Below, piece by piece: positions 14,553-37,615 of a DNA stretch of 42,809 nt. The stretch is taken from positions 1-42,809 of the forward strand of contig JAPLOI010000074.1 in assembly GCA_026400815.1 (NCBI GenBank), in the 5' to 3' direction. Source of the stretch: Alphaproteobacteria bacterium. GTDB taxonomy: Bacteria > Pseudomonadota > Alphaproteobacteria > Acetobacterales > Acetobacteraceae. A program made the translations under genes and the position numbers. The stretch's first letter is position 1; every line of letters begins with the position of its first letter. The notes under the pieces were generated by a model that worked only from the letters and a program-made list of their open reading frames with translations, was not told the origin of the DNA and did not search any database.

Positions 14553-14690
14553 GGCAAGCAAGCGGTTCTTTTTTGGAAAAAAGAACCAAAAAACTTTTGT
14601 TTGTTTGCTGGCCCGGGCGCCCGGGGCAGCAAACGAATGAAGTCTTTTTCTTCAGAAAAAAGAAGACCCTTCCTTCCTCGGAGCCCCACC
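14553..14690. repeat. Dispersed multi-hairpin repeat, copy 1
   Basis: The stretch contains three consecutive palindromes. The first has an 11-bp stem at 14564-14574/14577-14587 (GGTTCTTTTTT pairing with AAAAAAGAACC). The second is TTTGCTG at 14604-14610 with CAGCAAA at 14627-14633 around a CCCGGGCGCCCGGG core. The third is a CTTTTTCT/AGAAAAAAG hairpin near 14643-14663. The first part is closely matched at 37454-37515, so this is a dispersed element. The U-rich first hairpin would act as a terminator in either direction after the MlrC gene. Confidence 0.8.
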
Positions 14691-18162: not shown

Positions 18163-18200
18163 GGGCAGGGGCTTTGCCCCTGCACCCCACTGGGGTCTTT
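18163..18200. repeat. Palindromic GGGCAGGGGC repeat (REP-like), also a terminator
   Basis: An 8-bp perfect stem GCAGGGGC/GCCCCTGC at 18165-18172 and 18176-18183, with loop TTT, is followed by ACCCCACTGGGGTCTTT. The sequence closely matches 39757-39791 (CAGGGGCTCTGCTCCTGGACCCC...), so it belongs to a dispersed palindrome family. It lies between the CMD-family gene and the left edge of the low-GC island and would terminate transcription. Confidence 0.75.
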
Positions 18201-18219
18201 GGCGCGATCTGTTTGGGTC

Positions 18220-18241
18220 GAACGTTCCCCACAGAACGTTC
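18220..18241. promoter_or_regulatory. Paired 8-bp palindromes upstream of the FRG gene
   Basis: GAACGTTC occurs twice (18220-18227 and 18234-18241), separated by 6 nt. Each copy is itself a perfect palindrome and the whole is symmetric. The site is 54-102 bp upstream of the possible starts of the FRG gene, in the only intergenic space of the island. A dimeric repressor bound to one DNA face is plausible. The spacing does not match the GTTC-N7-GTTC LexA box of alphaproteobacteria. Confidence 0.4.
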
Positions 18242-18294
18242 ATCCTCTGTGATAAACATAACCTATCTGAGCTAAGGGCAGTCGTAATTCCCAG

Positions 18295-19197
18295 ATGAAT
18301 GGTTTACATCTGTATGACCCTTTGCGAGCGACAGATCGGTCAATGTCAGACACGTTTCAAGCCGATACCCAACTCAGTGAAGCGGATGCCAATCTGCCGC
18401 CCGAGCCGAAGGCGCCGATCGTAGCTACGGTTGAAACTGTTCAAGATTTTGCTTCGCTGGTTATCCAAGAAACACGTGGGCAGAGTCGCCGATGGTTCCG
18501 TGGGACGCGGAACTGCATTTATAGATTAGTGCCAAGTTTGTATAGACATCCGTCCATTAAGGGAACGGATCGATTAATCGAGCTTGAATGGGAGTTGCTT
18601 TCAGAATTCAGGCATGAGGCGCCGCCATTTTCGAATAGATTGCCGCCAGAAAATCTGGAATTATTATTTTTGATGCAGCATTATGGAATCCCAACCAGAT
18701 TGCTGGATTGGACGGAGAACCCATTTATAGCGCTTTTTTTCGCGTTGGAGAATGCTCGTCAGGAGAGGGCAGGTGAGGAGGTTGATGCAACGGTATGGAT
18801 ACTAGACCCGGTCAACCTCAATAAGATTGCGTATAGCAATCGAGCGAACGCCAATAGGGTTTATGGTGCTTATGCGGATGAATTGGCGGCTTATCAGCCA
18901 AGCCAGGATGCAAAAAAGGTAAGTATGTTGCTGCCATTGGCAATTCATGGAGTCCATAACAGTCAGCGTATCGTAGCTCAGCGGGGGTCTTTTACTATTT
19001 TTGGTCGTGATACCACTGCGTTAGATCAGAATAGCGCGTTGAGCGGTTTCAGTGGAGTAGTTAAGCAGATTAGGATTTCTGCTAATTCTAAGAAACAAAT
19101 GTTTGATGATTTGTTTAACATCGGAGTTGCGGATTCTGTAGTTTACCCTGATCTCGATGGCCTCGGGAGAGAAATTCGGAATAGGAGGGGGTTCTAG
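18295..19197 (+). CDS. FRG-domain protein
   Basis: 300 residues from ATG 18295; an ATG at 18343 (MSDTFQAD) is an alternative, and neither has a strong Shine-Dalgarno. The FRG domain is well marked: RRWFRGTRNCIYRLVPSLYR near residues 65-84, LLFLMQHYGIPTRLLDW at about 125-141 followed by NPFIALFFALENA, and QRGSFTIFG near 235. The domain is named after its Phe-Arg-Gly motif and occurs in proteins of phage-defence and other accessory islands; its biochemical activity is not firmly established. GC content is far below the surroundings, with codons ending in A/T, so recent transfer is likely. The DUF262 gene begins 2 bp after the stop, indicating a two-gene operon. Confidence 0.88.
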   Translation: MNGLHLYDPLRATDRSMSDTFQADTQLSEADANLPPEPKAPIVATVETVQDFASLVIQETRGQSRRWFRGTRNCIYRLVPSLYRHPSIKGTDRLIELEWELLSEFRHEAPPFSNRLPPENLELLFLMQHYGIPTRLLDWTENPFIALFFALENARQERAGEEVDATVWILDPVNLNKIAYSNRANANRVYGAYADELAAYQPSQDAKKVSMLLPLAIHGVHNSQRIVAQRGSFTIFGRDTTALDQNSALSGFSGVVKQIRISANSKKQMFDDLFNIGVADSVVYPDLDGLGREIRNRRGF

Positions 19198-19199
19198 GT

Positions 19200-20417
19200 A
19201 TGTCGTTTCGGACAATACAGATGCCGCCCCAGACGCTTACCACGTGGTGGGAGGAAAGCTCAGATATAGATTTTGATCCAGTGTATCAACGATCTGGGCA
19301 TATCTGGCCGATTAAGATGAAACAGGATCTAGTTGATACAGTGTTGAATGGCTTTGACATACCGAAACTGTATGTGGCTAATTTTACACTTCTCGACAGC
19401 CCTTTGAATCAAGGGGGGAAGAAGTATGCAGTCATTGATGGAAAGCAACGTCTAAACGCATTATTTGGATTTTTTGCGGGCGAATATGCGCTGCCAAAGA
19501 CATTTACATACTACGAGGATACAGCGCTTGAATTGGGCGGGTTATCATATAAAGATTTGGTGAATAATTATCCTCGTATTGCTCGTCGGTTCGACAATTA
19601 CCCTCTGACGGTCGTTCATGTTGTCACGGACGATGAGTCGAAGATCAATGAACTCTTTCTTCGGTTGAATGCCAGCAAACCTCTAACCGGAGCGGAAGTG
19701 CGCAATGCCATGCGTGGCGAGGTTCCCGCGATAATTAGGGATCTGGTAGCGCATCCATTTTGGAGCAAAATACGCTTCAATACGTTAAGAGGCCAGGACA
19801 AGAACGCCGCCGCGAAGTTGCTTCTTATTGAACATACCGGTACGTTTGTTGATACAAAGAAAACTCAGCTGGACGACCTAGTCCGTAGGGCAAATGAAGC
19901 TGCGGAGACTGCCGCCCGTGCTGACGGGGGCGCTACTTCTATTGCAGATGTGGAAGATATTGAGCGCTCGACGGAGGAGGTGCTTCCAGAATCTGAGGAG
20001 GAGGCAGAGTCCCTCATTTCAGATGATTTGGTAGAAAAAGTTGCCGAAACCGACCATCCAGACATCGGCCGATCTGCAATGAGAGTGAAGAGAGAGCTCG
20101 ATAAGCTTTCTAATATCTTTATTGAACGGGACTCCCTTCTTGCGCAGCAGGCACAACTGCCGGTGATTTATTGGCTCGTTCGGGAAATTAAGCTTGACCG
20201 TGTTGCTAAGGTGCGCCCTTTTTTGCAGAAGTTTGATCTGGATCGGCAAGAAAACAGACGGCGTGACATCGGGGATCCTAGTCGTGATCTAACGCTTGTG
20301 GATTTCGAGATGCTAACGCGTTCCAGCAATGACCAAGGGAGCATACGCGGTCGCTACGGCATATTGAGACGGCGGTTCGATGCATTTACAAATTGGACAT
20401 CGGAGCAGAACGGTTAG
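19200..20417 (+). CDS. DUF262-domain protein (ParB/Srx-like, GmrSD-related)
   Basis: 405 residues with a strong AGGAGGGG Shine-Dalgarno inside the end of the FRG gene. The N-terminal DUF262 domain shows FDPVYQRSGHIWP near residues 25-37 and the core motif AVIDGKQRLNAL (DGQQR type), followed by LFLRLNASKPLTGAEVRNA. This domain is related to ParB/sulfiredoxin-type NTP-using nucleases and is found in GmrS and other anti-phage DNA-modification-dependent systems. A very acidic linker (about residues 255-280, ESEEEAESLISDD) separates it from an alpha-helical C-terminal region. There is no HNH (DUF1524) motif typical of GmrD, so the effector arrangement differs from classical GmrSD. The low GC matches the FRG partner. 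Confidence 0.88.
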   Translation: MSFRTIQMPPQTLTTWWEESSDIDFDPVYQRSGHIWPIKMKQDLVDTVLNGFDIPKLYVANFTLLDSPLNQGGKKYAVIDGKQRLNALFGFFAGEYALPKTFTYYEDTALELGGLSYKDLVNNYPRIARRFDNYPLTVVHVVTDDESKINELFLRLNASKPLTGAEVRNAMRGEVPAIIRDLVAHPFWSKIRFNTLRGQDKNAAAKLLLIEHTGTFVDTKKTQLDDLVRRANEAAETAARADGGATSIADVEDIERSTEEVLPESEEEAESLISDDLVEKVAETDHPDIGRSAMRVKRELDKLSNIFIERDSLLAQQAQLPVIYWLVREIKLDRVAKVRPFLQKFDLDRQENRRRDIGDPSRDLTLVDFEMLTRSSNDQGSIRGRYGILRRRFDAFTNWTSEQNG

Positions 20418-20476
20418 CCTTCAGGGGCCGGGGAGGTTGTGCTTGCGGCCGTGCTCGCGCTGGGGTCCTTCTCCCC

Positions 20477-37452: not shown

Positions 37453-37615
37453 GACAAGCAAGCAAGAATGTTCTTTTTTGAAAAAAAGAACCAAAAAACG
37501 TTTGTTCGTTTGCGGTTCGCAGCGCCCGGTTCCCCGGGGGAAGAACGGGCGGTTGCGACCGCAAAAGAAAAAGTCTTTTTGCTTCTTTTTCTTCAGAAAA
37601 AGAAGGCGCTTTCCT
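37453..37615. repeat. Dispersed multi-hairpin repeat, copy 2
   Basis: It begins with CAAGCAAGAATG, then the hairpin TTCTTTTTT (37471-37479) with AAAAAAGAA (37482-37490) and CCAAAAAACGTTTGTTCGTTTGC. This run matches 14554-14610 with few changes. The middle (CGCCCGGTTCCCCGGGGGAAGAACGGGCG) forms a second stem, and CTTCTTTTTCTTCAGAAAAAGAAG near 37581-37605 forms a third. The order of three hairpins is the same as in copy 1, while the loops and centre have diverged. It lies between two convergent genes. Confidence 0.78.

Follow-up and report, generated by a model that had tools for sequence, protein, structure and literature searches.

The window (the whole stretch of 42,809 nucleotides analysed here) carries an FRG-domain gene and a DUF262 gene on one segment of low G+C content. 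The features of the locus are:

18165..18183, + strand: palindrome GCAGGGGC..GCCCCTGC, at the left edge of the acquired segment; two congeners carry it at this edge too
18196..20472, no strand: acquired low-G+C segment (48.3% versus 69.6% G+C), with flank homology up to 18195 and again from 20473/20477
18343..19197, + strand: FRG-domain protein, 284 aa (300 aa from the alternative start at 18295); predicted ADP-ribosyltransferase-superfamily effector
19183..19188, + strand: Shine-Dalgarno-like AGGAGG of the second gene, read from the sequence, within the end of the FRG gene and before the DUF262 ATG
19200..20417, + strand: DUF262 (GmrSD_N) protein of 405 aa that lacks HNH/DUF1524; predicted to be a ParB/Srx-like NTPase sensor plus helical C-terminal part
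19437..19451, + strand: DGKQR, residues 80-84 of the DUF262 protein, the equivalent of the DGQQR nucleotide-binding motif

The G+C content is 48.3% within the 2.28-kb segment and 69.6% in the rest of the window. The lowest value among 720 windows of the same length outside the segment is 63.2%, and the segment lies at z = -7.7. GC3 is 46% for FRG and 49% for DUF262, versus 84-91% for five flanking genes. These values bear out the low-GC island with A/T-ending codons of the first-pass annotation; its extent, given there as 18200..20417, is refined to about 18196-20472 by comparison with two congeners. The genes lie in the order FRG then DUF262 on the same strand, with 2 bp between the FRG stop (19197) and the DUF262 start (19200) and the second ribosome-binding site inside the first gene, as had been described. 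Comparison with relatives makes the ATG at 18343 a likelier start codon for FRG than that at 18295. No recombinase is seen by eye among the listed ORFs of the window, in agreement with the earlier reading, and a promoter and terminator scan gave chance-level results only.

In the two nearest congeners (L029 and L030), sequence 93-97% identical to the flanks in the window breaks off at window position 18195 and picks up again at 20473/20477. The gap is filled by unrelated DNA, about 780 and about 2560 bp long, respectively, in which the G+C content drops locally to 40% and 45% and which has the following ORFs in low-G+C DNA:

L029:6264-6980, - strand: ORF of 239 aa
L030:2080-3189, - strand: ORF of 370 aa

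The proteins in these inserts have no match in Pfam. In more distant congeners, the site is occupied by other sequences, for the most part of high G+C. Because congeners hold unrelated DNA between matching flanks, the island position is, by sequence comparison, a variable chromosomal site, at which no integrase is seen. A DUF262 protein of this kind occurs in one of nine genomes of the genus, the window's own; the other eight are 68-98% complete. The pair in the window looks intact and looks acquired at this site. The palindrome GCAGGGGCTTTGCCCCTGC (18165-18183) has eight copies in the genome at ≤1 mismatch, versus 0 for the reversed control. Elsewhere in the window, A/T-rich inverted elements surround a GC-rich core at 14560-14670 (AAAGAACC) and at about 37478-37600; both have similar KKRTKK.LFVC-type translations and, by eye, look like a dispersed palindromic repeat.

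Domains and motifs of the two proteins

The identities proposed at first pass are upheld by Pfam, with FRG matching PF08867 (E 6.9e-24; 85 bits versus a curated cut-off of 25) and DUF262 matching PF03235, GmrSD_N (E 6.4e-15; 56.2 bits versus a curated cut-off of 33.2). The DUF1524 HNH half noted as missing is indeed absent, as neither protein has DUF1524, HNH or another second Pfam domain at E ≤ 0.1. NCBIfam gave nothing near a cut-off for either protein. In PADLOC, FRG matches PDC-S15 (PDLC04938, E 6.4e-53), and DUF262 matches NsnA (E 2.2e-24) and, more weakly, PD-T4-2_A (E 7.5e-11).

Sequence searches of solved structures gave 0 matches for FRG and one chance row (E 0.81) for DUF262. The best Foldseek match of the DUF262 model is GmrSD / BrxU, with a VIA alignment to BrxU 1-425, and the model appears to resemble BrxU/SspE in their sensor half, the nuclease being absent. 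Within the DGKQR motif, D80, G81, Q83, and R84 are invariant in 30 of 30 aligned proteins, and the third residue is lysine, differing from DGQQR, a nucleotide-binding motif (PMC4619093 and PMC8565348, in part). In all, 26 columns of DUF262 are invariant, the NTP-binding motif included. The unpaired DUF262 proteins nearest in score, L276 (4664-9452) and L277 (7626-8855), have a C-terminal HNH (PF01844). The L276 gene adjoins genes for an AAA_13 ATPase and an HATPase_c_4 (RecG C-terminal) protein.

The FRG domain has been described as an immune effector of the ADP-ribosyltransferase superfamily (Frg clade; Burroughs & Aravind 2020, cited in PMC9503650, in part). The FRG protein of the window is predicted to be such an effector, with fold matches that are weak and that include ART-fold toxins of toxin-antitoxin and related systems (RES, ParT, and Rhs).

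FRG and DUF262 as a conserved unit

In a scan with one genome per species, DUF262 lies directly downstream in 11 of 11 FRG relatives. The paired loci come from Skermanella, Rhizobium, Pseudoduganella, and two Pseudomonas and from metagenome-assembled genomes (Flavobacteriaceae, Ignavibacteria, Acidobacteria, Sumerlaeota, Chloroflexi, and one unplaced bacterium). When the set was widened with viral contigs and more genomes, the FRG profile matched 126 ORFs, 33 of which score at least 199 bits, a threshold that is partly circular because each of the 12 rows from which the profile was built is paired. DUF262 adjoins all 31 testable high-scoring FRGs; the other two end at contig edges. Among the 93 ORFs below 199 bits, two are pieces of the broken FRG of L003, beside DUF262, two lie at contig edges, and none of the remainder has DUF262 directly downstream, including three just below the threshold (L074-L076, 194-198 bits). 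The set contains two duplicates (L072 = L037 and L085 = L083), and loci at contig ends are uncountable (L066, L081, and L184; among low scorers L090 and L133). As read, the FRG frames of L003 and L011 are broken; neither was mended, and both were excluded from the FRG alignments. These interrupted frames (L003:7974-8836 and L011:710-1532) stand next to open DUF262 ORFs and reflect either sequencing error or decay.

The same picture is obtained from the DUF262 side, in a count made on loci fetched later, many of them the same contigs again: 19 of 20 rows scoring at least 330 bits have FRG upstream, one is cut at a contig end, and every row below 330 bits lacks an upstream FRG. In a phylum-level set of 398 genomes, the top five for FRG (E ≤ 1.2e-62) and the top five for DUF262 (E ≤ 8.0e-129) are the same genomes, the next-best values being 3.3e-44 and 1.8e-38, respectively. 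The class of another member was covered with 369 genomes, of which four reach E ≤ 1e-50 for DUF262. FRG is paired with it in G515 and in G755, where a run of N breaks up the DUF262; G720 and G856 (210 and 191 bits) have HNH and no adjacent FRG, with a weak FRG about 5 kb off in G720. Six of 289 genomes of the window's own class have FRG at E ≤ 1e-10, three of them paired and three weak and unpaired. The plasmid collection yielded one match, which is paired, and the phage collection one weak match at half coverage with no FRG annotated beside it.

The FRG and DUF262 distance matrices of 29 pairs correlate at 0.93 (0 of 10,000 permutations), a value to which shared descent of the hosts contributes. 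Conserved adjacency together with co-occurrence in genomes rules out a chance neighbourhood of two unrelated genes. On this evidence from gene order and co-occurrence, FRG-DUF262 is a conserved two-gene unit; the family, defined here as FRG then DUF262 on the same strand, includes the pair of the window, 2 bp apart. The adjacency, which the first-pass annotation had proposed to search for, is thus conserved across phyla and not unique to this genome.

Neighbouring methyltransferases and restriction genes

A C5-cytosine methyltransferase gene lies within 2.5 kb in 9 of 32 paired loci, a set that excludes the window, which has none. On viral contigs, it is found at 6 of 14 paired loci, versus 2 of 49 loci in each of two control sets, unpaired FRG and unpaired DUF262 (Fisher p = 0.00096 for each comparison). 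The control hits come from a local C5 methyltransferase profile built from the nine positive loci. The flanks demanded were not the same for paired and control loci, and with 2-kb flanks required the counts are 6 of 10 versus 2 of 49. None is found at 23 unpaired FRG control loci (23 of 46 eligible) among the matches listed, which cover 25 of 75 Pfam families and this local profile. In one control (L088), a methyltransferase lies 2.9 kb away, beyond the 2.5-kb limit. Neighbour ORFs of at least 90 aa were chosen by a longest-ORF rule, and Pfam was run on 157 of the 180 chosen neighbours of the 32 paired loci, the shortest being dropped; the matches listed cover 25 of 69 and 25 of 38 families.

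The nearest relative of the window (L002; 62% identity over both proteins, grouped at 100% SH-aLRT) has the single-strand order Vsr, C5 methyltransferase, Eco29kI restriction endonuclease, FRG, DUF262, and a distant member (L260) has the identical order. Three viral contigs carry C5 methyltransferases 57-63% identical to one another and different from the L002 type:

L067:6954-7970: C5 methyltransferase
L069:6947-7978: C5 methyltransferase
L073:3599-4660: C5 methyltransferase

Their stops lie 15, 13, and 2 bp upstream of FRG, respectively (19, 17, and 6 from the last sense codon), and no restriction endonuclease is assignable to these three loci among the matches listed (25 of 38 families). 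In L005, a C5 methyltransferase, an NgoFVII restriction endonuclease, and Vsr lie just downstream of the pair; L071 and L077 have Eco29kI cassettes on the opposite strand; and in L083 the methyltransferase is 0.6 kb upstream. Two further loci, L012 and L185, have an N4/N6-type methyltransferase nearby. In L012 this enzyme (L012:9912-11012; PF01555, TSPPY motif) is encoded directly downstream of the pair.

The nine methyltransferase loci are not independent: the label is clustered on the tree (1 of 500 shuffles as low) and needs 4 changes, at least 3 of them forced by supported branches. Within the L067/L069/L071/L073 clade, L071 has the Eco29kI-type enzyme and the other three the second type. 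These mixed types and the 4 changes on the tree point to a link of the pair with cytosine methylation rather than with one particular enzyme; the 23 of 32 loci without it and the lack of a PF00145 match in the window's genome speak against such a link. This methyltransferase linkage is new here.

The expectation of enrichment near defence genes stands for cytosine methyltransferases, some with restriction enzymes, and general enrichment beyond restriction-modification was not found with PADLOC among 143 neighbours of 14 loci. The neighbour matches, in the 25 of 60 families listed, have two members each and are to C5-methylase, restriction-endonuclease, or Vsr models; ten further neighbours comprise one methyltransferase (L012), one PDC-S71 (L006), and eight without a match. 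Since the adjacency is conserved and methyltransferases are enriched, neither uniqueness to one genome nor absence from defence contexts holds, supporting the reading of the locus as a two-gene system. The window itself has no linked DNA methyltransferase by a search with PF00145 (C5 methyltransferase), the only profile used, which has no match in its whole genome.

Relation to known systems and possible mode of action

The DUF262 protein of the window shares with GmrSD and BrxU the N-domain PF03235, the DGxQR motif (the nucleotide motif of GmrSD, present here as DGKQR), and a predicted ParB/Srx fold. It differs from them in the absence of HNH/DUF1524 from the pair, in having a separate FRG as putative effector, and in the lysine of DGKQR. 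Assignment to GmrSD was rejected, as no HNH/DUF1524 is fused or adjacent; the ORF on the other side is nitroreductase-like by eye. SspE and DndI are phosphorothioate-sensing DUF262-DUF1524 effectors, whereas here C5-cytosine methylation is the linked modification, at a minority of loci, and there is no nuclease domain.

FRG matches the profile of PDC-S15, an FRG phage-defence candidate in PADLOC (E 6.4e-53). We take this label to denote a single-gene candidate, whereas in the present clade the FRG gene is tied to DUF262. NsnA, which is presumably the Menshen protein, and PD-T4-2_A are DUF262 proteins (E 2.2e-24 and 7.5e-11, respectively, with the window). In Menshen, DUF262 is linked with a predicted OLD nuclease, and PD-T4-2 is listed with HEPN (PMC10952713, in part), whereas the DUF262 partner here is FRG. 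Menshen, which has NsnB and NsnC (OLD-type) as partners next to its DUF262 gene, was rejected, as the partner here matches only PDC-S15 models and no OLD-type ATPase is seen by eye among neighbouring ORFs; PD-T4-2 was rejected, as the partner is FRG and no PD-T4-2_B match is listed at E ≤ 1. Dazbog, likened by description, is also a DUF262 system without DUF1524, and its DUF262 is described as a likely reader of methylated DNA (PMC10952713, in part). With the Frg-clade ART effectors of prokaryotic immunity, the pair shares the FRG domain as an ART-superfamily immune effector (PMC9503650, in part).

A literature search, with most subscription papers outside its reach, found no paper naming both DUF262 and FRG and none joining 'FRG domain' with 'phage defense'. 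Judged by title, only PMC9503650 in the FRG-domain literature bears on immunity. FRG is absent from a review covering two of PD-T4-2, FRG domain, and DUF262, and the main text of DefensePredictor contains neither term. The pairing may already be described in Burroughs & Aravind 2020 or in subscription papers.

The fixed pairing, the domains and conserved motifs, the absence of HNH, and the methyltransferase linkage in a minority of loci are consistent with FRG-DUF262 being one anti-phage (anti-invader) operon, in which DUF262 would read the state of DNA and release an NAD-consuming FRG effector. We put the probability of this reading at about 60%. DUF262 would be both sensor and switch, its ParB/Srx-like NTP-binding domain and helical part reading the DNA state, probably a modification. 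Once released, FRG would consume NAD+ or ADP-ribosylate a vital target, and the infected cell would be stopped. We infer DNA sensing, NAD+ consumption, an abortive outcome, and phage protection; the roles of sensor and effector suggested at first pass are compatible with the fold and motif data. GmrSD, BrxU, and SspE are DUF262 switches that couple sensing of DNA modification to an HNH nuclease: BrxU degrades DNA carrying 5mC, 5hmC, or glc-5hmC (PMC8565348, in part), and SspE recognises phosphorothioate and uses GTP hydrolysis to switch (PMC9646914, in part). The scheme would be like theirs, except that a stand-alone FRG enzyme takes the place of the HNH nuclease. If the trigger were 5mC, as in BrxU, a self-methylating host would itself be attacked, so methyltransferase-linked members may respond to something else, be it lost methylation, a different sequence context, or a modification of another kind.

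The pair could instead be a toxin-antitoxin (addiction) module, in which FRG is a growth-stopping ART-type toxin neutralised by DUF262 and the module stabilises prophages, plasmids, and islands, defence being a by-product. The FRG-first order with closely spaced or overlapping ORFs, the location of pairs on viral contigs and of one on a plasmid, with integrase or CI-repressor genes next to several of them, and the ART-fold toxins among the weak fold matches agree with such a module. However, 26 invariant DUF262 columns, including the NTP-binding motif, seem more than a passive antitoxin needs, the fold relatives of DUF262 are sensors of DNA modification, and the linkage to methyltransferase and Vsr is left unexplained, and we consider this rather unlikely. 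The pair could also be an accessory of restriction-modification cassettes, a regulator or guard of the methyltransferase and not an independent defence. In its favour, the pair is preceded on its own strand by Vsr, methyltransferase, and restriction-endonuclease genes in L002 and L260, and a C5 methyltransferase ends 2-15 bp upstream in L067, L069, and L073; but a C5 methyltransferase within 2.5 kb is missing from 23 of 32 paired loci and none was detected in the genome of the window, making an accessory role improbable.

Type IV-like restriction, with DUF262 itself binding and cutting modified DNA and FRG merely regulating or protecting, would accord with the GmrSD N-domain and with ParB-superfamily members reported to have nuclease and NTPase activity (PMC10853773, in part). 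The HNH/DUF1524 is, however, absent where FRG is present, while unpaired L276 and L277 have a C-terminal HNH, and we regard this as very unlikely.

If the anti-phage operon with an NAD-consuming FRG is correct, sensing of modification would be seen to set off shutdown of the whole cell, not cleavage of DNA, by means of an ADP-ribosyltransferase-superfamily effector. Restriction-modification would be joined to NAD+-based immune systems, and a catalogued FRG defence candidate would gain a partner and a testable function. A more specific form of the operon, which we put forward tentatively and hold to be doubtful, is a suicide counterpart of restriction that senses modification: a cytosine methyltransferase would set the DNA state, DUF262 would read it by an NTP-driven switch, and NAD+ would be destroyed instead of DNA being cut. 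The methyltransferase would be the system's own in methyltransferase-FRG-DUF262 strings and another's elsewhere, and the trigger would be a foreign modification or loss of self methylation. In L067, L069, and L073, the pair occupies the place expected for a restriction-enzyme gene.
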